Made by a program: the position numbers and the translations under genes. Positions 10,841 to 21,749 of a stretch of 64,000 nt of DNA are shown one piece after another (position 1 is the stretch's first letter; each line of letters opens with the position of its first letter). Below the pieces are notes generated by a model. The model worked only from the letters and a program-made list of their open reading frames with translations. It had not been told where the DNA came from and did no database searches. The DNA comes from Janthinobacterium lividum (GTDB lineage Bacteria > Pseudomonadota > Gammaproteobacteria > Burkholderiales > Burkholderiaceae_D), in assembly GCF_034424625.1 (NCBI RefSeq), contig NZ_CP139976.1, positions 5,394,001 to 5,458,000 of the forward strand, read 5' to 3'.

Positions 10841-11066
10841 CCTACCCATCTACCCTATTCCTTCTTGCAACGCCATTCTTTGGTGCGCTCGCGCCTGCGA
10901 AATCGGTGCATCGCGCCTCACTTTGGTGATTGTTGCGACAAAATGTAAAAAGCCCGAAATGCGGCTTTGCGCCGCCTGTTTTTTGTTGTACCTTTCTTCA
11001 CACGTACCGCCTGTCGAAGCGGTTTTCACGAGACGCCGCCGTATCTTTATCCATTGGAGAATGTTT

Positions 11067-12209
11067 ATGCTGCTCAAGACCAAAGTCCTTCCTCTCGCCG
11101 TCGCCCTTGCCTTTGCCGGCCATGCGGGCGCACAGGAAATCATCAAGATCGGCCACGTCGCCCCGGTCTCTGGCGCCAGCTCCCACCTGGGCAAGGATAA
11201 CGAGAACGCGGCCAAGATGGCGATCGAGGATTTGAACGCCAAAGGCTTCAAGATCGACGGCAAAGCCGTGAAATTCGTGCTGGTCCCCGAAGATGACGCA
11301 GCCGATCCCAAGCAGGGCACGGCCGTGGCGCAAAAGCTGGTCGACGCCAAGGTCAACGGCGTGGTCGGCCACCTGAATTCGGGCACGACGATTCCCGCCT
11401 CGCGCATTTACTTCAATGCCGGCATTCCACAGATTTCACCGGCGGCCACCAACCCGACGTATACCCAGCAGAAATTCAACACGGCCTTCCGCGTCGTCGC
11501 CAATGACAACAAGCTGGGCGGAACTTTGGGCGCGTATGCCGTAGGCAAGCTGCAGGCGAAGAAAATCGCCGTCATCGATGACCGCACGGCATACGGCCAG
11601 GGCGTGGCGGAACAATTCGTCAAGGGCGCCAAGAAGGCGGCCCCAGGCGTGCAAATCGTCGGCAAGGAATTTACGAATGCCAACGCGACGGACTTCAATG
11701 CCATCCTGACCAGCATCAAGTCGAAAAATCCCGACCTGATCTTCTTTGGCGGCATGGACTCCGTGGGCGGCCCCATGCTGCGCCAGATGAAGGCGCTGGG
11801 CATCAAGGCCAAGTTCATGGGCGGCGATGGCTTGTGCACGGAGCCGCTGGGCAAGCTGGCAGGCGACGCCGTGGGCGAAGACATGGTCACTTGCGCGGAA
11901 GCGGGCGGCGTGACGGGCGCGCAGCAAAAAGGCATGGACGACTTCCGCGCCCGCTACAAGCAGAAATACAATATGGAAGTGCAGCTGTACGCGCCATACG
12001 TCTACGATGCCGTGATGACCATGGCCACCGCCATGGCCGACGCGAAATCGTCGAAACCATCCGTCTACCTGCCTTTCCTGGCCAAGGTGCACTACCAGGG
12101 CGTGACGGGCCCGATCTCGTTCGACGCCAACGGCGACATCAAGGATGGCGCGCTGACCTTGTTCACTTACCGCGATGGCAAGAAGACCAAGATGGAAGTG
12201 GTCAAATAA
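11067..12209 (+). CDS. branched-chain amino acid ABC transporter, periplasmic binding protein
   Basis: This is a type I periplasmic binding protein of the LivJ/LivK family, expected to bind leucine, isoleucine, valine or a related amino acid. The 380-residue precursor starts with a signal peptide (MLLKTKVLPLAVALAFAGHAGA, cleavage near AQE), then IKIGHVAPVSGASSHLGKDNENAAKMAIEDL in two pieces typical of the family. TFFTNANATDF-like and FMGGDGLCTEP segments follow. I chose ATG 11067 because GGAGA lies 7 bases upstream; an ATG two codons earlier would sit on top of that site. No liv permease or ATPase genes lie nearby, so it must work with a transporter encoded elsewhere. The stop codon is 2 bases before the first copy of the 94-bp element. 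Confidence 0.92.
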   Translation: MLLKTKVLPLAVALAFAGHAGAQEIIKIGHVAPVSGASSHLGKDNENAAKMAIEDLNAKGFKIDGKAVKFVLVPEDDAADPKQGTAVAQKLVDAKVNGVVGHLNSGTTIPASRIYFNAGIPQISPAATNPTYTQQKFNTAFRVVANDNKLGGTLGAYAVGKLQAKKIAVIDDRTAYGQGVAEQFVKGAKKAAPGVQIVGKEFTNANATDFNAILTSIKSKNPDLIFFGGMDSVGGPMLRQMKALGIKAKFMGGDGLCTEPLGKLAGDAVGEDMVTCAEAGGVTGAQQKGMDDFRARYKQKYNMEVQLYAPYVYDAVMTMATAMADAKSSKPSVYLPFLAKVHYQGVTGPISFDANGDIKDGALTLFTYRDGKKTKMEVVK

Positions 12210-12210
12210 T

Positions 12211-12310
12211 AGAACCTACTGCGCGGCGCGATTTGCGGCCTGCGATGCTCACTGTGCATTCGCACAGCTCCGCTTCTCAGCCACAACTCACATCCGCTCG
12301 CTACGGTTCT
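12211..12310 (+). repeat. 94-bp interspersed element, copy A (with arms)
   Basis: The 94-bp core is 12214-12307, bracketed here by AGAACC and GGTTCT arms. Compared with copy B it has 5 differences. It begins 2 bases after the stop codon of the binding-protein gene, in the same orientation relative to that gene as copies B and C have to theirs. An internal hairpin CTGTGC-ATTC-GCACAG is present. The far end overlaps the last codons of the convergent LysR gene: its final two residues (Glu-Pro) and stop codon come from the element. Confidence 0.85.
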
Positions 12311-13203
12311 TGCTGTCCGGCCACGTAAGCCAGTAACCCTTCGGCCAGCGCGTCGAAGGTGGCGCGGCAGCGCAGGCTGCCGCGCAAGTCTTCATGCATG
12401 GTGATCCAGGTTTCCATCGGTAGCGCAAACGCTTGCGGCAACACGCGCCGCAGGGCCGGATCGCGCGCCGCCAGACCCGCCTGGCACACGCCGACGCCGG
12501 CGCCCGCGCGTATCAGGGCCAGTTGCGCCAGGTCGCTGTCGCTGCGCCAGGCAAAATTTTCCCGCGCAAATCCGTTGAAAGCCGCGCCCGCGTTGCGCAC
12601 GAAGGCGCTCGCCTCGTCGTAGCCGATGACGGCATGCTGCGCCAGATCGGCCAGTACCAGCGGCGTGCCATGCCGCGCTAGGTAATCCACGTGGGCATGC
12701 AGGCCCAGTTCGATATCGCCCACCTTGCGCGCCACCAGCTGTTCCTGGCGAGGCCGCAGCATGCGCACGGCGATGTCCGCTTCCCGTCGCAACAAATCCT
12801 GCACCTTGTTACTCAATACCAATTCAATGGTCAAGCCCGGATGGCGCGCACGCAGGCGGGCCAGGATGGGCGGCAGCACTTCCACGCCCACCACTTCGCT
12901 GGCCGCGATGCGCACGACGCCGGCCACGCCCTGCCCCTGGCTGCTGGCGGCGCGCTGCATCAGGGCGGCAGTATGTTCCATGGTTTCCGCATGGGGCCGC
13001 AGCGCGAGGGCCACTTCCGTGGGCAGCAAGCCCAGCTGGGAGCGCGTGAACAGGGTTGCGCCCAGCGCCTGCTCGAGCGCGGCGATATGCCGGCCGACGG
13101 TGGGCTGCGTGATGCCCAGCGCGCGTGCGGCGCCGGACAGGGAACCGTGCTTCAGCACGGCCAGCAGCGAACGGTAGTATTCCCAGGCGATCGAGGTAGT
13201 CAT
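12301..13203 (-). CDS. LysR-family transcriptional regulator
   Basis: The 300-residue protein has an N-terminal winged helix-turn-helix (about residues 5-65: LLAVLKHGSLSGAARALGI, then TQPTVGRHIAALEQALG and LFTRS) and a C-terminal substrate-binding region. I chose the ATG at 13203; a longer frame adds a non-homologous stretch. It is divergent from the NAD(P)-binding epimerase-like gene at 13295 with a 91-base gap, the classic layout for a LysR regulator and its target, so that gene is the likely target. Its effector is unknown. The C-terminal residues Glu-Pro and the stop are contributed by repeat copy A. Confidence 0.9.
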   Translation of the reverse strand: MTTSIAWEYYRSLLAVLKHGSLSGAARALGITQPTVGRHIAALEQALGATLFTRSQLGLLPTEVALALRPHAETMEHTAALMQRAASSQGQGVAGVVRIAASEVVGVEVLPPILARLRARHPGLTIELVLSNKVQDLLRREADIAVRMLRPRQEQLVARKVGDIELGLHAHVDYLARHGTPLVLADLAQHAVIGYDEASAFVRNAGAAFNGFARENFAWRSDSDLAQLALIRAGAGVGVCQAGLAARDPALRRVLPQAFALPMETWITMHEDLRGSLRCRATFDALAEGLLAYVAGQQEP

Positions 13204-13294
13204 ACATAAATGTATAGCCCATGGTCGATGCTCGTCAATTCCCAATTAGCCTTGCGCGGCAGATACTGGCTCCATCAACCACACGGAGGACAAT

Positions 13295-14308
13295 ATGGAC
13301 AAAACGGTATTGGTGCTGGGCGCGACGGGCGGCATCGGCGGCGAGATGGTCCGCCAACTGCAGGCAGCAGGCTGGCAGGTGCGCGCCCTGACGCGGGGAG
13401 AAACGCCATCGCCACGCGGCGATAACATCGAGTGGCTGCGCGGCGATGCGCTGTCGCGCGCGGACGTGCTGGCGGCCGCGAAAGGCTGCGCCGTCATCGT
13501 GCACGCCGTCAACCCGCCCGGCTACCGCCACTGGGGCCGGCTGGTACTGCCCATGCTCGACAACACGATTTCAGCGGCGATTGCCGAAGGCGCCACCATC
13601 GTGCTGCCGGGCACCGTGTACAACTTCGGTCCCGACGCCTTTCCCGCATCGGGAGACTTACTTGCGGAAGATGCGCCGCAACGCCCGCTCACGCGCAAGG
13701 GCGCCATCCGCGTGGCACTGGAAGCGCGGCTGGAATGGGCCAGCACGCAGGGCGCCAGGGTCATCATCGTGCGCGCGGGCGACTTCTTCGGCCCCCGCGC
13801 CGGCAACAACTGGTTTTCGCAGGGGCTGGTGAAACCGGGCCATCCCGTGCGCAGCGTGCTGTATCCCGGTACGCACGGCGTGGGCCACCAATGGTCCTAC
13901 CTGCCCGACGTGGCACGCACAATGCTGCAATTGCTGGCCATGCGCGCCACGTTGCCCGCGTTCTCTCGCTTTCACATGGCCGGCCACTGGGACCACGACG
14001 GCCGGCAAATGACGGGCGCGATTGCCCGCGTGGTGGAACAGGCGACAGGAACTGCGCCCGCCATCCGGCGTTTTCCGTGGTGGCTGGTGGCGCTGGCGTC
14101 GCCGTTCGTGGCGACCCTGCGCGAAATGCGCGAGATGCGCTATCTGTGGCACACGCCCTTGGCCATGGACAATGCGCGGCTGCTGGCCGTGCTGGGCCAG
14201 GAGCCGCATACGCCGCTCGACGAGGCGGTGCGGGCTACATTGGAAGGCATGGGTAATCTGCAGAAGGCAGCGGGCAAAAAAAACGCGCCGGGATTGCCGG
14301 CGCGCTGA
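13295..14308 (+). CDS. NAD(P)-binding epimerase / NmrA-like atypical SDR protein
   Basis: The 337-residue protein starts with a Rossmann motif VLVLGATGGIGGEMVRQL typical of extended or atypical short-chain dehydrogenases. A VIVHAVNPPGY segment and a VLPGTVYNFGPD segment follow in the positions of the cofactor and catalytic regions, but a clear YxxxK is not evident, so a redox or epimerase function is not certain. GGAGGA lies 5 bases before the ATG. It is divergent from the LysR gene above and probably under its control. The 3' end encodes, on the opposite strand, the terminator of the convergent cytochrome gene. The substrate is unknown. Confidence 0.8.
   Translation: MDKTVLVLGATGGIGGEMVRQLQAAGWQVRALTRGETPSPRGDNIEWLRGDALSRADVLAAAKGCAVIVHAVNPPGYRHWGRLVLPMLDNTISAAIAEGATIVLPGTVYNFGPDAFPASGDLLAEDAPQRPLTRKGAIRVALEARLEWASTQGARVIIVRAGDFFGPRAGNNWFSQGLVKPGHPVRSVLYPGTHGVGHQWSYLPDVARTMLQLLAMRATLPAFSRFHMAGHWDHDGRQMTGAIARVVEQATGTAPAIRRFPWWLVALASPFVATLREMREMRYLWHTPLAMDNARLLAVLGQEPHTPLDEAVRATLEGMGNLQKAAGKKNAPGLPAR
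14276..14304 (-). terminator. terminator of the cytochrome c gene, inside the opposite gene's 3' end
   Basis: On the minus strand CGCGCCGG (14297-14304) pairs with CCGGCGCG (14284-14291) over a 5-base loop and is followed by eight T (14283-14276). It lies 25 bases after the cytochrome stop. The same bases encode the last residues of the convergent SDR-like protein. Confidence 0.85.
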
Positions 14309-14329
14309 TTGCAGGTACTGCGGCACAGA

Positions 14330-14641
14330 TTATTTCTGTGCGAGTACCCATTTGACCAGGGTGTGGGCTTCCGCATCGCTCACTTGCGGGTTCGCTGGCA
14401 TCGGGATCGCGCCCCAGGTGCCGGAACCGCCCTTCATGACTTTCGCCACGAGCTTGGCTTCCGCGTCTTTCTGACCGGCATACTTGGCAGCCACGTCCTT
14501 GAACGCAGGGCCCACCAGTTTCGTGCTCACCGCGTGGCAAGCCATGCAGTTTTTTGCTTTCGCCAGGTCCGGATTGGCCAACGCTGCTTGCGATGCCAAA
14601 GCCGATACGGCCAATACACTCACCAACATAAAACGTTTCAT
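14330..14641 (-). CDS. small class I cytochrome c (c551/c552 type)
   Basis: This is a periplasmic electron carrier. The 103-residue precursor has a signal peptide (MKRFMLVSVLAVSALASQA, cleavage near ALAN) and a single covalent heme site CMACH at about residues 32-36. The sixth ligand is a methionine in the IPMPANPQVSD segment near residue 80. The mature size of about 80 residues fits cytochrome c551/c552. The gene is monocistronic, with its own terminator; it lies downstream of ilvD on the same strand but more than 340 bases away. Confidence 0.93.
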   Translation of the reverse strand: MKRFMLVSVLAVSALASQAALANPDLAKAKNCMACHAVSTKLVGPAFKDVAAKYAGQKDAEAKLVAKVMKGGSGTWGAIPMPANPQVSDAEAHTLVKWVLAQK

Positions 14642-14863
14642 TGTCTTTTCTCCAAAGTTACTTCCTGCGGCATTTTACTGTGTTTCCGCAGATGCACCAC
14701 GAGCCCAGATCAAGCGTTTCAATGTAGTAACGCAATGTAGTCAGGAGGCATGCATATTCTGCCCCATCTGCGCGTCCATGACCATGTTGTTTGTAAGGCG
14801 ATGTAACGACAGCCGGCCCCGCGCAGCAAATCGGGGCCGGCTGTCTTACCTGCACAACAGTAT
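14642..14863. other. intergenic region before the cytochrome gene, with a 14-bp perfect hairpin
   Basis: No gene is supported here. The main feature is a perfect 14-bp inverted repeat: GACAGCCGGCCCCG at 14808-14821 and its complement at 14832-14845, over a 10-base loop. Neither side has a clean T-tract. It could terminate ilvD transcription that passes copy B, insulate the cytochrome promoter, or be a protein-binding site. Confidence 0.6.
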
Positions 14864-14985
14864 CCAACACCTGGCAAACCGTAGCGAGCGGCAGCGAGTT
14901 GTGGCTGAGAAGCGCAGCTGTGCGAATGCACAGTGAGCATCGCAGGCCGCAAATCGCGACGCGCAGTAGGTTTTGCCTGGTGTGG
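14864..14985 (-). repeat. 94-bp interspersed element, copy B (with arms)
   Basis: The 94-bp core is 14878-14971. The flanking arms CCAACACCTGGCAAACC (14864-14880) and GGTTTTGCCTGGTGTGG (14969-14985) are complementary apart from small mismatches, and the outer arm ends directly at the ilvD stop codon. The internal CTGTGC hairpin is conserved. Relative to ilvD the element has the same orientation as copies A and C have to their upstream genes. Confidence 0.85.
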
Positions 14986-16851
14986 TCAGCGCTTCTTCAG
15001 TTGGGAGAGATCGCGCACGGCGCCCCGGTCAGCCGACGTCGTCAGCGCCGCATACGCCTGCAGCGCCTGCGACACATAGCGCTCGCGGTTGACGGGCAGC
15101 CAGGCCGCGTCGCCCTTCGCTTCCATGGCGGCGCGGCGCGCGGCCAGTTCAACGTCCGTCACGCGCAAATTAATGGTGCGCTCGGGGATGTCGATGTCGA
15201 TGAAGTCGCCCTCTTCCACCAGGCCGATGGCGCCGCCTTCGGCCGCTTCCGGCGAGGCGTGGCCGATCACCAGGCCCGAGGAACCGCCCGAGAAGCGCCC
15301 GTCCGTGAACAGCGCGCACGCCTTGCCCAGACCTTTGGATTTGATGTACGAAGTCGGGTACAGCATTTCCTGCATGCCGGGGCCGCCTTTCGGGCCTTCG
15401 TAGCGGATGATGACGACGTCGCCTTCATGCACGGTATCGGCCAAAATCGCTTCAACAGCGGCATCCTGGCTTTCGAACACGCGCGCCTTGCCCGAGAATT
15501 TCAGGATGCTTTCATCGACGCCTGCCGTCTTGACGATGCAGCCCTTTTCCGCCAGATTGCCGTACAAGACGGCCAGGCCGCCATCCTGCGAGTACGCATG
15601 CGCCTTGTCGCGGATGCAGCCCGTGCTGCGGTCCGTGTCGACTGCCGCAAAACGCTCCGATTGCGAGAACGCCGTCTGCGTCGGCACGCCTCCCGGGGCG
15701 GCGCGGAACAATTCATGCACGGCCGGATTGTCCGTGCACATGATGTCGTTTTGCGCGATGGCGTCGGCCAGAGTTGGCGCGTGGATGGTCGGCAGGGTCG
15801 TGTTCAGCAAGCCGGCGCGTGCCAGTTCGCCCAGGATGCCCACGATGCCGCCCGCGCGGTGCACGTCTTCGATATGGTATTTGTCCGTCATCGGCGCGAC
15901 CTTGCACAGGCACGGTACCTTGAGCGAGATGCGGTCGATGTCGGCCATCGTGAATTCCACTTCCGCTTCGTGCGCGGCGGCCAGCAGGTGCAGCACGGTA
16001 TTCGTCGAGCCGCCCATGGAAACGTCGAGCGCCATGGCGTTTTCAAATGCGGACTTGGTGGCGATCGAGCGTGGCAGCACCGAGTAATCGTCCTGCTCGT
16101 AATGGCGCTTGGCCAGTTCGACGATCAGGCGGCCCGCGCGCAGGAACAGCTGCTGGCGGTCCGAGTGCGTGGCCAGGATGGTGCCGTTGCCGGGCAGGGC
16201 CAGGCCCAGCGCCTCGGTCAGGCAGTTCATCGAGTTGGCCGTAAACATGCCGGAGCAGGAACCGCAGGTAGGACAGGCCGAGCGTTCGATCTCCGCCACG
16301 TCGGCGTCGGACACCGTGCTGTCACCGGCCTTGATCATGGCGTCGACCAGGTCCAGCTTGATGATCTTCTGCGTGCCGTTGACCACCTTGACAACCTTGC
16401 CCGCTTCCATCGGGCCGCCGGAAATGAAGACGACGGGGATATTGATGCGCATGGCGGCCATCAGCATGCCCGGCGTGATCTTGTCGCAGTTCGAGATGCA
16501 GACCATGGCGTCGGCGCAGTGGGCGTTGACCATGTATTCGACGGAGTCGGCGATCAGGTCGCGCGAAGGCAGCGAATACAGCATGCCGCCGTGGCCCATG
16601 GCGATGCCGTCATCGACGGCGATGGTGTTGAATTCCTTGGCTACGCCGCCGGCCGCCTCGATTTCGCGCGCCACCATCTGGCCCAGGTCTTTCAGGTGCA
16701 CGTGGCCGGGCACGAACTGGGTAAACGAGTTGACCACGGCGATGATCGGCTTGTCGAAGTCGCCATCCTTCATGCCGGTGGCGCGCCACAGGGCGCGGGC
16801 GCCAGCCATGTTGCGGCCGTGGGTGGTGGTGCGGGAGCGGTATTGCGGCAT
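14986..16851 (-). CDS. ilvD: dihydroxy-acid dehydratase
   Basis: IlvD dehydrates 2,3-dihydroxy-isovalerate and its methylvalerate homologue in isoleucine, valine and pantothenate synthesis. The 621-residue protein starts [19 protein letters not shown], as in the enterobacterial enzyme. It shows the iron-sulfur cysteines in [12 protein letters not shown] and in [17 protein letters not shown]. The LPGNGT segment follows, and the C-terminal region contains [11 protein letters not shown], typical of the family. ATG 16851 is chosen from this alignment; the upstream extension is not conserved. It is divergent from a LysR gene 182 bases away and is followed at once by copy B of the 94-bp element. 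Confidence 0.97.
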
Positions 16852-16923
16852 GATGGACCTTCCAAAAGTGTTGGTGCCTGACTGTGCGGGCTTACAAAAA
16901 AATTCGCAGTAAAACCCTGCATG

Positions 16924-16963
16924 CAGTGGGGGTACGCCAGATTGCCTTGCGCGCGCCCCACTG
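16924..16963. promoter_or_regulatory. inverted repeat between ilvD and its divergent LysR gene
   Basis: CAGTGGGG (16924-16931) and CCCCACTG (16956-16963) form a perfect 8-bp inverted repeat 24 bases apart, next to a CTGCATGCAG palindrome at about 16918-16927. The site sits in the 182-base divergent region and is a plausible regulator-binding site; which protein binds is unknown. Confidence 0.4.
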
Positions 16964-17033
16964 TCAAATATATGATGCACGTGTCTGTGAGTCGCTTTAT
17001 ATATCACAGAACTTATTCCCCATGGAAACGCAT

Positions 17034-17945
17034 ATGAACCTTGAACTGCGCCAGCTGCGCTATTTCGTCACCGTCGCCGAGGAATTGCACTTCGGCCGCG
17101 CCGCCGCGCGCCTGCACATGACGCAACCGCCCCTGTCGCAAACCATCATGGCCCTGGAAGAATTGCTGGGCGCGCCCCTGTTCGTGCGCACGCGCCGCGA
17201 AGTGCAGCTGACGCCGGCCGGCACGGCCCTGCTGCCCGAGGCGCGCCGGCTGCTGGCGCAGGCGTTCGATTTGCCCGCGCTGGTGCAACGGGCCGCGCAG
17301 GGCGAGGCGGGGCGATTGAGCCTGGCGTTTGTTTCCTCGGCCGACTACAGCGTGCTGCCGCCGCTGCTGCGCGCGTATCAGACGGCTTATCCGCAAGTAC
17401 AGATCCAGTTGCAGGAGGCCACTTCCGACCTGCAGCTGGACGAATTGCTGGCCGGGCGTACGGATGCGGGCCTGTTGATCCCGCCGCTGCCCGAAAAGGC
17501 CAAAGGGACGCTCGACTACCTGCCCGTGCTGGCCGAGCCGCTGGTGCTGGCCGCGCCGTCCGGCCTCGCCATTTTAAATACGCCGGGCGCGGTGCGCCTG
17601 CGCGACGTGCCGTCCCTGCCCTTGATCATTTTCCCGCGCGCGATCTCGCCCGCCCTGCACGACGCCATCCTCGGCGTGTTCCGCGCGGCCGGCATCACGC
17701 CGCAGATCGGCCAGGAAGCGATCCAGATGCAAACCATCGTCAGCCTCGTCTCGGCTGGCATGGGCATCGCGCTTGTGCCACAATCGGTATCGAATCTGAT
17801 GCGCCCGGGCGTAGAATACAGGCCGCTGCAGGACGCCACGCCGCTGGTGGAAACGGGCCTGGCCTGGCGCCGCGACAATCCGTCCGCCGTGCTGCAAGGC
17901 TTTCTGGCGCTGTTGCGCAAGCAGATAAGCCACCCGGCACGATAA
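17034..17945 (+). CDS. LysR-family transcriptional regulator divergent from ilvD
   Basis: The 303-residue protein has the LysR helix-turn-helix at the N-terminus ([20 protein letters not shown], then [20 protein letters not shown] and LFVRTRR) and an effector domain with [19 protein letters not shown]. The N-terminus resembles regulators of aromatic and amino-acid genes (BenM/CatM/IlvR-like group), but the effector is not evident. I chose ATG 17034, which has GGAA 6 bases upstream; an ATG at 17022 is possible. It is divergent from ilvD, and control of ilvD is an inference from layout only. Confidence 0.9.
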
Positions 17946-18025
17946 ATTAAGTGGCCGCTAAGGCAAAGAACCGCAAGCGCCCCCATACTACGCAACCTTG
18001 GCTTTAAACAAAGAAAGAAACCCCC

Positions 18026-18856
18026 ATGCTGATACACCCGATGCCCGACCCGATAGCCATCCAGATCGGCCCGCTCGCCGTGCACTGGTACGGCCTGATG
18101 TATGTGCTGGCCTTTGCCCTGTTCATTATCCTGGGCCGCGTGCGCATCAAGCAGCCGCATATCGCCGTGCTGGGCTGGAAGAAGGAAGACCTCGATGACA
18201 TGCTGTTCTACGGCATGCTGGGCGTGGTGATCGGCGGGCGCCTGGGCGAAGTGCTGTTCTACCGCCCCGAATACTTCATGCACAATCCGCTCGAGATCTT
18301 CATGGTCTGGCATGGCGGCATGTCCTTCCATGGCGGCTTCCTCGGCGTCATCCTGGCCATGTACCTGTGGAGCCGCAAGGCGGGCCGCAACCTGTTCGAT
18401 GTGCTCGACTTCATCGCGCCGCTGGTGCCGCTCGGCTACGCGGCCGGCCGTCTGGGCAACTTCATCAATGCAGAACTGCCGGGCCGCATCGCCCCGGAAA
18501 CCCTGCCGTGGGCCATGCAATGGCCAGGCATTCCGTATCCCGTGCACCCGTCACCGCTCTACCAGATGCTGGTCGACGGCATCCTGGTGTTCATCATCCT
18601 GTGGCTGTATGCGCGCAAGCAGCGTCCGCGCATGGCCGTGGGCGCCATGTTTACCCTGCTGTACGGCTGCGCGCGCTTCTTCACGGAATACTTCCGCACG
18701 CCGGACTGGGAAGTCGTGTGGCTGGGCGTGCCGATCACCTCGGGCCAGATGCTGTCCCTGCCGATGATCGTCGGCGCCATCGCGCTGCTGGTGTGGGCGT
18801 ATAAAAGCCAGGTAATGGGCACGCCGCCCACCAAGGCCCGCCCGGCCAACACGTAA
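18026..18856 (+). CDS. lgt: prolipoprotein diacylglyceryl transferase
   Basis: Lgt is the inner-membrane enzyme that adds diacylglycerol from phosphatidylglycerol to the lipobox cysteine of prolipoproteins. The 276-residue protein has about seven hydrophobic segments. It carries the HGGMSFHGGFLG motif near residue 100 and the Lgt signature GRLGNFINAELPGR near 140, both with essential residues. The N-terminal MLIHPMPDPIAIQIGPLAVHW is typical. The gene has no close partner; a strong GC hairpin follows 16 bases after its stop. Confidence 0.97.
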   Translation: MLIHPMPDPIAIQIGPLAVHWYGLMYVLAFALFIILGRVRIKQPHIAVLGWKKEDLDDMLFYGMLGVVIGGRLGEVLFYRPEYFMHNPLEIFMVWHGGMSFHGGFLGVILAMYLWSRKAGRNLFDVLDFIAPLVPLGYAAGRLGNFINAELPGRIAPETLPWAMQWPGIPYPVHPSPLYQMLVDGILVFIILWLYARKQRPRMAVGAMFTLLYGCARFFTEYFRTPDWEVVWLGVPITSGQMLSLPMIVGAIALLVWAYKSQVMGTPPTKARPANT

Positions 18857-18871
18857 AACGGCCGTTCCCCC

Positions 18872-18898
18872 GATGGCGCGCCAGGCAGGCGCGCCATC
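18872..18898 (+). terminator. hairpin after lgt
   Basis: GATGGCGCGCC (18872-18882) pairs perfectly with its complement at 18888-18898 over a 5-base loop. There is no T-tract, so it is either a weak terminator or a 3'-end stability hairpin for lgt mRNA. Confidence 0.55.
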
Positions 18899-19048
18899 AC
18901 CCTCCTCCGGCAACCTTTCCCTCAAAGCAGCATAATTTCCTTGCGGAATGAATCTTCGCTTGCGATAGCGCAATGATCGCTTTACCCTGCAGCAAGAGCA
19001 GGGCATGCAATCATGCTGTGTTGGCAATTCGAGCGGGGAGTCCCATCC

Positions 19049-20526
19049 ATGCAGTATGCGAGGAAGACCACGACATTCTGGCTGGCGCTGGCGGGCGGCT
19101 ACGTGCTGGCGCAACTGGCCTTGACGGCTTGGGCCGGGACGCGCGGTCCCGCCGTAAGCTACCTGTTCGGCGTGATGGCGCCACTGCTGGCGCTGGCCGC
19201 CTGCTGCCGCAACGCCAGCCTGAGCACACCCGGCGTCGTGCGCACGGGCTGGGGCCTGTTTGCGGCCGCCATGCTGTTCTGGAGCACGGGCATGGCGTTG
19301 TCCGCCTGGCAAGACCTGAGCGGCCATGTGGCGTCCGACACGACGTATTTCTCCGATTTTGCCTATTTCATGTATGGCGCACCCTTGCTGCTGGCCATTT
19401 CCTCCGTCAGCGACCGCCACCCTTCGCGCACCCTGCAATGGTTGGACGCCGTGCAAGTGCTGCTGGCAGCTTACCTGACCTATACGGCCATCTTTTCCGT
19501 CTCGCCCTTCGACCAGCGCTCGATCGCGCCGATACCCGCCAGCCTGCTGGTGACGACGTACAACGTGGAAAACCTCGTCCTGGCCTGTTGCGCCTCGCTG
19601 CGCCTGCTGGCGCACCGCCGCGATGGCGCACAAGGGCGTTTCTACCTGCTGCTCAGCGTGTTCCTGTGGTGCTACGCCGCCTGCGCGGGTGCCTATAATT
19701 ACCTGACCCTGCATGCGCTGGCCGAAGCCGGTCCCAGCGAGGTACTGCCCAGCCTGCCTTTCCTGCTGCTGGCGGTGCTGGCCATGCGCGTGCAGCCGGG
19801 CGAGGAAGAAGCACGGCCGCCGCGCCCGTTGACCTTGCTGATTGACAACTTCAGCCCCATCTTCTTCACGGCAGCCCTGCTGGGACTGGGATTCGTCGTG
19901 CTGCGCGAACATTTCTACCTGGCGGCCAGCGCCCTGTTTGTCGCGCTGACGGTCCACGCGCTGCGCTCGGCCACCCTGCAAAGCCGCTACATGCAAAGCG
20001 AACGGGCGTTGCGCGAAGCCCACGACAAACTGGAAAAGCTGTCGCTGACGGATGGCTTGACGGGCATCGCCAACCGGCGCTGCTTCGACCAGACCCTGCA
20101 GCTGGAGTGGCAGCGCGCCGCGCGCAACAATCAAGCGCTGGCGCTGCTGATCATCGATATCGACTTCTTCAAAAGCCTCAACGATACCTTCGGCCACCCG
20201 TATGGCGACGCGTGTCTGGTGCAGATCGCGGCGGCCCTGCATTCCGCGTTGCCGCGCGCCAGCGACCTGGCGGCCCGCTTCGGCGGAGAGGAGTTTGCCG
20301 CCATCCTGCCCGCCACCGATGGTGCGGGTGCGCTGGCCGTGGCGCACAAGATGCAGGAAGCGATTGCCTCAGCCGCCATCGTCCACGCGCCGTCGCGCGG
20401 CGGCCTGGTGACGGCCAGCATCGGCCTCGCGCTCAATGACGCAGGACAGACGCCGGAACAATTGCTCGCCGCCGCCGACCAGGCCCTGTACCGGGCCAAG
20501 CAGAATGGCCGCAACCGGGTCGAAGG

Positions 20527-20530
<4 letters not shown>
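19049..20530 (+). CDS. membrane-bound diguanylate cyclase (GGDEF)
   Basis: This enzyme makes cyclic-di-GMP from two GTP. The 493-residue protein has an N-terminal membrane sensor of about eight hydrophobic segments (residues 10-305). A short helical linker follows, then a GGDEF domain from about 330. The active-site motif is GGEEF at 412-416. An RxxD inhibitory site (RASD, 403-406) lies exactly five residues before it, so product feedback inhibition is likely. ATG 19049 is preceded by GGGGAG; an upstream ATG would add 12 residues with no better site. Its stop overlaps that of the convergent EVE gene at a shared CTAG. The signal sensed is unknown. Confidence 0.93.
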
Positions 20531-20991
<461 letters not shown>

Positions 20992-21020
20992 ATTCACTCC
21001 CTATCAAAAGCAACAGGCGT

Positions 21021-21054
21021 AAAAAAACGGTTGCGCATCGATGCTGCAACCGTT
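21021..21054 (-). terminator. terminator of 6S RNA
   Basis: On the minus strand AACGGTTGC (21054-21046) pairs with GCAACCGTT (21034-21026) and is followed by a run of T. It lies just past the 3' end of the predicted 6S RNA and 30 bases before the EVE start codon. Confidence 0.85.
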
Positions 21055-21069
21055 TTCTTGGTACTGCAA

Positions 21070-21250
21070 ATTGGGCCCCGCCTGTGCCGCTATGCCGGCA
21101 TCCCGAACCAAACGGTTCAAGGTGGTCACGTTAGTTCAATTTCGGGTTCGTCGAACGAGCGACGCTCACTCCCATCAAACAAAATTCGCAACCGATGCGC
21201 ATAAATGGTTCAAGGAATATATGGCAATCGCGAACACCGCAGGGTAGACC
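21070..21250 (-). ncRNA. ssrS: 6S RNA
   Basis: 6S RNA binds sigma-70 RNA polymerase and lowers promoter use in stationary phase. Read on the minus strand the segment has a closing stem (CTTGGGTC near the 5' end with GGGCCCAA near the 3' end). The conserved 5' element CCCTGCGGTGTTCG is present. Near the 3' side ACCTTGAACC followed by GGTTC matches the enterobacterial 6S sequence closely. A terminator follows, and TAAACT at 21253-21258 may be the -10 box. The position downstream of zapA is the known ssrS location. Ends are approximate to about 10 bases. Confidence 0.88.
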
Positions 21251-21318
21251 CAAGTTTACTCCTTTGATCGCGCATCGCAAAGACAAATCGTACTGTGTCC
21301 GCTTAAAATCCAATTAAT

Positions 21319-21438
21319 AACACTGAACAAAACCGTAGCGAGCGGCGATGAATTGTGGCCAAGAAGCGCAGCTGTGCTTGAGCACAGCGAGCATCGCAGG
21401 CCGCAAGGCGCGACACGCAGTAGGTTTGGTTCAGTGTT
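21319..21438 (-). repeat. 94-bp interspersed element, copy C (with arms)
   Basis: The 94-bp core is 21332-21425, with 14 differences from copy B. The arms AACACTGAAC (21319-21328) and GTTCAGTGTT (21429-21438) are perfectly complementary and differ from the arms of A and B; the right arm touches the zapA stop codon. The internal hairpin keeps its stem while the loop changes from GAAT to TTGA, and one adjoining G-U pair becomes G-C. It lies between zapA and 6S RNA. Confidence 0.85.
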
Positions 21439-21749
21439 TAAAAAAGGTTTTCCTGGGGCGTCAATGCACTATCCAACACCGTGTGCATGGCCGAGATTTT
21501 CTGCTTCACTTCCAGTATCGTCAATTCCGACAGCGGACCTTGCGGCGACTTCACGGAGAGGAATTCCGCGGCCACGCCCAGGGCGGCCAGCACGGCGATG
21601 CGGTCGTTGCCCTTGACCTTGCCCGCGTCGCGGATGGCTTTCATTTTGCTATCGAGATAGATCGCCGCTTCGCGCAGCGCGCGCTCTTCGCCGTCGCGGC
21701 ACACCATGCTGTAGGACTGGCCCATGATATTGACATCGACACGCGGCAT
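21438..21749 (-). CDS. zapA: cell division protein ZapA
   Basis: ZapA binds and cross-links FtsZ filaments at the division ring. The 103-residue protein has the family start VDVNIMGQSYSMVCRDGEE, a central KMKAIRDAGKVKGNDRIAVLAAL region and a C-terminal coiled-coil segment. It overlaps the upstream zapB-like gene by one base (TAATG), so both are read from one transcript. The stop codon is embedded in the outer arm of repeat copy C, and 6S RNA follows. Confidence 0.95.
   Translation of the reverse strand: MPRVDVNIMGQSYSMVCRDGEERALREAAIYLDSKMKAIRDAGKVKGNDRIAVLAALGVAAEFLSVKSPQGPLSELTILEVKQKISAMHTVLDSALTPQENLF

Follow-up and report, generated by a model that had tools for sequence, protein, structure and literature searches.

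A hairpin repeat, probably a non-autonomous mobile element, located behind stop codons in Janthinobacterium lividum and other genera

Introduction

Among described bacterial repeats, YPAL/RU-2 and ERIC (RU-1, IRU) resemble the subject of this study, a hairpin-forming element with three copies (A, B, and C) in a 64,000-nucleotide stretch of the Janthinobacterium lividum genome (NZ_CP139976.1, positions 5,394,001 to 5,458,000; this whole stretch is hereafter called the window). In the excerpts of PMC2229807, YPAL/RU-2 is about 168 bp long and duplicates 3 to 26 bp of target adjacent to dyad symmetry, and Correia/NEMIS of Neisseria, a betaproteobacterium, comprises mobile hairpin elements of 107 and 155 bp with 24 contiguous paired bases and with the TA termini that form the rule from which YPAL departs. 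ERIC has TATA ends and duplicates TA (excerpts of PMC2759123 and PMC2229807). To the extent that these excerpts describe YPAL/RU-2, the present element is like it in being small, palindromic, and non-autonomous, with long hairpins, without TA termini, and with both empty and filled sites, and it is like ERIC in being an imperfect palindrome of similar length that lies between genes and forms a hairpin.

On balance, we think it probable that the repeat is a non-autonomous hairpin element of the miniature inverted-repeat transposable element (MITE) kind, YPAL- or ERIC-like, targeting T-N-A (TNA), often a stop codon. No description of it was found in the open-licence literature on repeats of related genera and on similar elements and, as far as those searches reach, it is unnamed in this form.

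Results and Discussion

A mobile repeat family

The repeat occurs far beyond chance. A covariance model based on an alignment of 64 diverse sequences, out of 69 chosen, gave 83 strong matches in the genome (E below 1e-12), all on the 6.32-Mb contig C1; since 150 of 3699 first-look candidates were scored, this count is a lower bound. A BLAST search with the core yielded at least 40 matches, with 40 of 95 candidates scored. Within the window, the strong matches were A, B, and C only. Genome-wide tallies refer to 86 places, i.e., 99 match rows minus 13 opposite-strand rows of the same places, including three weak matches of which one (L223) is probably no real copy. The copies in the window and the stop codons beside them are as follows:

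12207 to 12209, + strand: TAA stop codon of the gene upstream of copy A (called at 11061-12209, +)
12213 to 12308, + strand: copy A, 96-bp core AACC..GGTT, without long outer arms
14865 to 14985, - strand: copy B including its outer arms, CCACACCAGGCAA and TGCCAGGTGTTG
14877 to 14972, - strand: copy B, 96-bp core
14986 to 14988, - strand: TGA stop codon of ilvD, abutting the left end of copy B
21318 to 21437, - strand: copy C including its outer arms, ACACTGAACCA and TTGTTCAGTGTTA, followed by TTA at 21317-21315
21331 to 21426, - strand: copy C, 96-bp core
21438 to 21440, - strand: TAA stop codon of zapA, at the left end of copy C

All three copies reported by the initial annotation were thus found at their sites, and the differences it gave between 94-mers (5 positions for A vs. 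B and 14 for B vs. C) were reproduced; as 96-mers, A-B, B-C, and A-C differ at 5, 14, and 16 positions. It had described an element of exactly 94 bp, and while the copies are real, the core measures 96 bp and the element is longer, with outer arms in B and C that pair within each copy. In A, outer pairing is confined to AG (12211-12212) with CT (12309-12310), two bases per side. Its placement of the copies close to an upstream stop codon, in uniform orientation relative to that gene, also held, with 3 (A), 13 (B), and 11 nt (C) between stop codon and core.

To follow insertion, 30 of 66 stop-adjacent sites were compared with three relatives, one relative being counted twice at one site. Of the resulting 86 rows, 66 were empty, 18 full, and 2 partial; 28 of the 30 sites were empty in at least one relative and 12 were full in at least one. 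Because relatives often have empty sites, we conclude that the element moves, being both a repeat family and mobile. At ilvD, for example, the close relatives compared run from the native TGA straight into the downstream sequence where J. lividum has copy B with both arms, and genome G290 has an internally deleted relic of the element (L279). Copy A is missing behind the equivalent stop codon in three relatives (L319, L334, and L352), and the site of copy C is empty in one relative (L344) and filled in two (L314 and L318). The cleanest view of an insertion came from a junction reading GCA[TAA..GTTT]TAAGAAT against GCATAAGAAT, a gain of exactly 125 bp between two TAA. A short repeat with empty sites in relatives has the traits of a MITE, and these sites, together with varying copy number and TNA flanks, support the initial suggestion of a mobile MITE-like repeat.

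Flanking bases were counted in the 80 of 86 places with both core ends recognized, the set that also gave the position profile. T.A peaks flank the body at -16 in 33/80 and at +13 in 29/80 of the genome's own copies (other offsets, 0-11), and elsewhere at -16 in 32 and at +13 in 34 of 127 copies, with further left peaks at -17 (20) and -13 (22). In the pooled cases with T.A on both sides, left and right TNA matched in 22 of 42 (12.3 after shuffling; p 0.0012), so that a TNA target duplication is moderately supported. Copy C may show a duplication longer than 3 bp, and at L177 and L184 the last gene codons differ and the stop is supplied from the insertion side. At L207 (own position 5702095), the element had inserted where two genes share an ATGA start/stop overlap, and the downstream gene, judged by eye, apparently has a new GTG start.

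Placement at stop codons

Gene calls came from our own codon-usage finder rather than from annotation. A sense-gene stop lay within -16 to +10 of the model start in 66 of the 86 places, peaking sharply at -1 (21) and -2 (12). Gene contexts were ++ in 38 places, +- in 34, -- in 11, and -+ in 2, with one place lacking a downstream call, such that tandem contexts were sense in 38 cases vs. antisense in 11 (p 0.00014). When the gap between genes was emptied of the element and its T.A sites were hit evenly, 24.5 of 80 copies would be expected strictly at the sense stop, compared with 48 observed and a simulation maximum of 36; in a looser window the values were 62/80 vs. 29.6 for even positions. 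The rule recurs in other genera, where a sense stop stood at the left end in 61/94 and an antisense stop at the right end in 11, with tandem contexts of 39 ++ and 19 -- (incomplete contexts were excluded, numbering one for the first set and five for the second), and a sense stop was found in 7/13 of a distant branch. There is, therefore, a bias in both stop-codon position and orientation. Random orientation and position, which the initial annotation had named as refuting a 3' untranslated region (3'UTR) RNA role, was not seen; the result was the opposite, both in the source genome and in other genera.

Since TAA and TGA are themselves TNA sites, an element landing on one restores the stop codon without altering the protein, and this accounts for much of the placement at gene ends. 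A position right behind stops would also be expected of a host-serving hairpin in the 3'UTR, which would end or stabilize the upstream mRNA and be kept for that purpose; the finding that a relative lacks the element at 28 of the 30 sites compared speaks against such a role, and we consider it unlikely, albeit the most serious of the alternatives. Nor does the element look like an intrinsic terminator with a GC hairpin and T-run. The right flank in the position profile is GGCGTTGTTA with little conservation beyond it, and since no T-run follows the right arm, the element is not a canonical intrinsic terminator, a second point against a 3'UTR function. The idea that the outer arms are halves of older terminators split by insertion was likewise rejected, since insertion brings the arms along (as seen at ilvD) and since the exact hairpin CRCCTGAC-N2..25-GTCAGGYG does not occur in the genome.

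Modular architecture and covariation

In most copies the body, including paired outer arms, is about 122 bp with T-N-A on both flanks, and the core is 96 bp in 62/80. It has three layers, i.e., a tip, an internal-loop module, and the outer arms. Sequence conservation marks the tip (TGCGATGCTCRCYGTRC-NNNN-GYACRGYTGCGCTTCTC), partly owing to the choice of scan pattern, and the module (CTACTGCGC/GCTCGCTACG). In the outer arms, pairing is kept and sequence is not; most copies in the source genome have arms near AACRCCTGACCA and TTGTCAGGCGTT that pair with each other, and most of the 13 arm pairs show each of the four Watson-Crick types. The layers are exchangeable, as L115 and L124 keep the tip with other paired sequence replacing the module, and distant relatives of 142-158 nt (L224-L243) keep the module and paired arms with a different tip. 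In the diverse alignment, 90.2% of cells were paired and the covariation score was 0.493, compared with 0.151 when shuffled and at most 0.116 when slid; as the structure was derived from the same alignment, it is favored in the slid control. The strong covariation (0.493 vs. 0.151) bears out the description of the element as structured.

Three places (43788, 956982, and 2931007) are internally deleted copies. Apparently the same internal deletion has reduced the copies at L381, L382, and L222 in the source genome to a mini hairpin, arm-CTACTGCGCGTC-arm, that remains at stop codons, and other repeats (e.g., GGGTCAGTCGCTTCGCGATCGGAAT.. and GTAGGTCGG..) lie directly behind stops or adjoin a relic of the element at L331, L338, L346, L354, and L383.

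A fixed-orientation hairpin behind a stop, folded on the opposite strand, is also the layout of the integron attC site, which carries RYYYAAC and GTTRRRY boxes. An attC-like recombination site with a bottom-strand hairpin behind a reading frame would account for this shared layout and for a tandem array of three elements found in genome G440. Identity with attC was rejected on the absence of conserved AAC/GTT core boxes from the position profile; moreover, the outer arms have no fixed sequence and empty sites show that only the hairpin was added behind a native gene, making this the least credible of the explanations weighed here and extremely unlikely.

The strand that keeps the fold

The better preserved fold is that of the strand antisense to the adjacent gene. 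For the 68 own copies of 95-97 bp, to which the comparison was limited, the consensus energy was -25.6 kcal/mol for the sense and -56.4 kcal/mol for the antisense strand. Folded singly, the antisense strand had the lower energy in 67/68 own (66/68 with DNA parameters), 62/64 diverse, and 14/20 distant copies.

The base pairs of the arms give a view free of structure prediction, in that an A.C on the sense strand is a G.U on the opposite strand. Read in the sense direction, well-paired arms (72/80 own copies) contained 683 Watson-Crick, 17 G.U, and 55 A.C pairs, and the nine consensus arm pairs of 62 copies had 8 G.U vs. 41 A.C. Over all 13 arm positions of the 80 copies, the counts were 744, 42, and 65, with 472, 111, and 129 for shuffled partners. 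The underlying base changes show no such skew, with 62 G.U-making and 54 A.C-making changes in the arms and 17 and 23 in unpaired core columns. Whole-structure totals for the antisense fold (217 A.C, 25 G.U) were not used, as selecting that structure biases them. Consequently, the initial suggestion of a structured 3'UTR of the upstream mRNA is not favored, given that sense G.U pairs are rarer than A.C (17 vs. 55 and 8 vs. 41), and a sense-mRNA role as the maintaining force is disfavored because the fold is better preserved antisense. The conserved internal hairpin of the initial annotation survives as a structure strongly backed by covariation, but one that pairs better on the opposite strand. 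For the 3'UTR role, it can be said that sense-strand folds are highly stable as well (mean -52 kcal/mol) and that in A, B, and C they are more stable than shuffles (z -3.1, -3.7, and -6.7).

An RNA from the antisense strand might instead be the working molecule, either as a structured RNA or as an RNA intermediate of spread. Both the fold and the wobble preference are antisense, and a neighboring gene reads into that strand in 45/86 contexts (34 +- and 11 --). However, no neighboring gene reads that way in the 38/86 ++ contexts, and the Rfam family sX9, which corresponds to part of a sister branch (see below), matches the sense strand; we regard this explanation as quite unlikely, less so than two others but behind a 3'UTR role.

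The structure could also be that of a neutral relic repeat, produced by ancestry and by palindrome-correcting replication errors, and the internally deleted copies (43788, 956982, and 2931007) fit such decay. Yet unpaired loops stay conserved across genera, all four Watson-Crick types occur at most arm pairs, the G.U/A.C contrast has no matching skew in base changes (62 vs. 54), and the placement rule is repeated in other genera, so that a neutral relic appears highly improbable.

Distribution

Matches were found in 75/145 genomes of the family and 42/300 of the order (both E<=1e-12), in 8/140 of the class (E<=1e-6), and in 17/397 of the phylum (E<=1e-8), one of these outside the class; all four samples include the source genome, and the number of matches taken from any one genome was capped. 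An exact-pattern scan of named genomes gave at least 120 stretches, and among the matches listed were many from Janthinobacterium and Massilia, together with Herbaspirillum, Ralstonia, Zoogloea, Variovorax, Rubrivivax, Solimonas, and others. The distant-branch element was present in two records of the plasmid collections (Aeromonas caviae and Yersinia frederiksenii) and was not found in the E. coli collection, and the exact core occurred in one IMG/VR phage contig. A tandem array of three elements at about 127-nt spacing was seen in L386 (G440:C9:133822-134195).

Strand counts gave no clear sign of a replication-strand bias, with 19+/19- copies in the first half and 30+/18- in the second. Between copies, 9 spacings were under 5 kb compared with 5.6 expected.

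Copies retained at pstB|phoU and tRNA-SeC

From 31 genomes of one genus, 29 yielded the region of a gene that we take, from translated ends, to be pstB, followed by a presumed phoU. The element lies directly behind the pstB stop, ahead of phoU, in 24 of these 29, with at least three arm types by eye, and relics occur in two of the remaining five. The antisense fold was lower in all 23 measured of the 24 elements. In addition, five elements among 429 loci had a tRNA gene no more than 60 nt away. Four of these, in four genomes (L035, L051, L102, and L424), immediately follow the 3' end of tRNA-SeC and share its sense; tRNA and core are 12-14 nt apart, and the arms differ yet pair. The fifth adjoins tRNA-Trp on the other strand. 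At L035 and L102, the gene ahead of the tRNA begins like what is presumably SelB. The four tRNA-SeC copies may share one origin event.

To judge from the sequences, the pstB|phoU and tRNA-SeC positions look conserved between species, with arms exchanged but still paired. Since some copies are retained there, a host use at these loci is likely, and copies at a few conserved positions are probably kept for such a putative use. The presence at pstB|phoU in 24/29 genomes with at least three arm types and the four tRNA-SeC copies with swapped yet paired arms also count in favor of a 3'UTR hairpin.

Relation to sX9

No Rfam match to the element at E<=1 was found between 11000 and 23000 of the window, and none of eight further loci sharing this tip had a gathering-score match, to sX9 or otherwise, on the element; at one of the eight, a chance-level mir-2830 match (E 0.28) overlaps it. 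The only match in that part of the window was 6S RNA (RF00013, 75.6 bits) at 21071-21248 (-), which follows zapA and lies immediately downstream of copy C.

Of 20 distant-branch elements, 6 reach or exceed the gathering score for RF02228 (sX9), namely L226 (1008-1082), L232 (1064-1139), L224, L227, L229, and L230, and each time the match forms the right half of the hairpin. The family thus comprises the 3' strand of the tip, the GCUCGCUACG module, and the start of an arm in the distant sister branch, whose sense strand it matches, and leaves out the left half. While the initial annotation knew of no named element of this form, and this stands for the copies in the window, the sister branch does carry Rfam sX9. 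That family is described as the 76-nt "Xanthomonas sRNA sX9", a small RNA (sRNA) that the window copies do not match. In the excerpts of the respective papers, it is among the 20 most prevalent bacterial sRNAs, with a dash in the expression column (PMC9029176), and a single Xanthomonas genome contains several genes for it (PMC10924375). Considering how its matches lie within the element, sX9 may represent a mobile repeat and not an sRNA gene in its own right.

Proposed mode of insertion

In the mobile-element explanation, the identity of the element would lie in a folded single strand, with its tip, the CTACTGCGC/GCTCGCTACG module, and pairing arms of almost any sequence. Insertion would occur at T-N-A and duplicate it, and insertion into TAA or TGA would restore the stop and spare the protein. 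An enzyme acting in trans would recognize the folded antisense strand, and this recognition would fix the orientation; such strand-specific recognition is what we infer.

Several results weigh against this explanation. TNA has no polarity of its own, so that TNA alone does not explain the orientation. In the source genome alone, left and right TNA agree in only 8/19 (p 0.16), and several junctions (L168, L177, L184, and L201) have extra or missing bases. The left-end pattern had 141 matches at up to 2 mismatches (39 in the reversed control) and the right-end pattern 66 (control, 1), and no autonomous copy was seen among the three solo ends inspected, taken from the first left-end places listed and the right-end matches: 43788 and 956982 are relics like 2931007, and 5779964 is a fragment of the right end next to a REP-like repeat. 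No transposase family was recognized among the 10 proteins scanned of 20 genes called near clustered copies (L384/L385). As to the fold, 80 downstream control stretches lean slightly the same way (48/80, p 0.017), the antisense preference of the distant branch is weak (14/20), the G.U/A.C contrast is smaller over all 13 positions of the 80 copies (42 vs. 65), and the sense strands of A-C fold well (z -3.1 to -6.7). Palindrome correction during replication could yield paired arm changes without selection, though not the G.U/A.C contrast. Finally, conservation at pstB|phoU and tRNA-SeC hints at host selection as well.

If the mobile element is nevertheless the correct explanation, the duplicated TNA that restores the stop would be a simple reason for mobile hairpins gathering at gene ends, the structured strand of such a repeat can be that opposite the gene, and the prevalent Rfam sRNA family sX9 would appear to be half of a mobile repeat. 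More tentatively, and as a possibility that we consider less than probable, these elements could constitute a class recognized only as a folded single strand, the one opposite the host gene, spread over several genera, with sequence-free arms, exchangeable tips, and stop codons as self-repairing, one-orientation TNA targets, kept at a few loci (pstB|phoU and tRNA-SeC), and with sX9 as half of one branch.

Comparison with known systems

REP and REPIN are structured repeats between genes, a trait shared with the present element, which is much longer than REP/REPIN with its RAYT transposases and in which no REP unit of hairpin plus tetranucleotide was established. Correia/NEMIS is set apart, by its descriptions, in that the present element has TNA flanks and arms without fixed sequence. 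The termini are T.A here and not TATA as in ERIC, and plain ERIC kinship was rejected, as none of five elements scored to the 127-bp consensus above the best of 200 shuffles. A 2006 study reportedly placed YPAL just downstream of stop codons, where it is said to end or stabilize the upstream mRNA, and a YPAL-like placement behind stops was found here in 66/86 own and 61/94 other copies. The size of about 168 bp given for YPAL was not found, with a core of 96 bp and a body of about 122 bp; TNA flanks, fixed orientation, the antisense fold, and other hosts further separate the two, again by their descriptions. The element is, therefore, distinct from YPAL and ERIC in its TNA flanks, its fixed orientation at stop codons, its sequence-free arms, and a fold that is better kept on the antisense strand.

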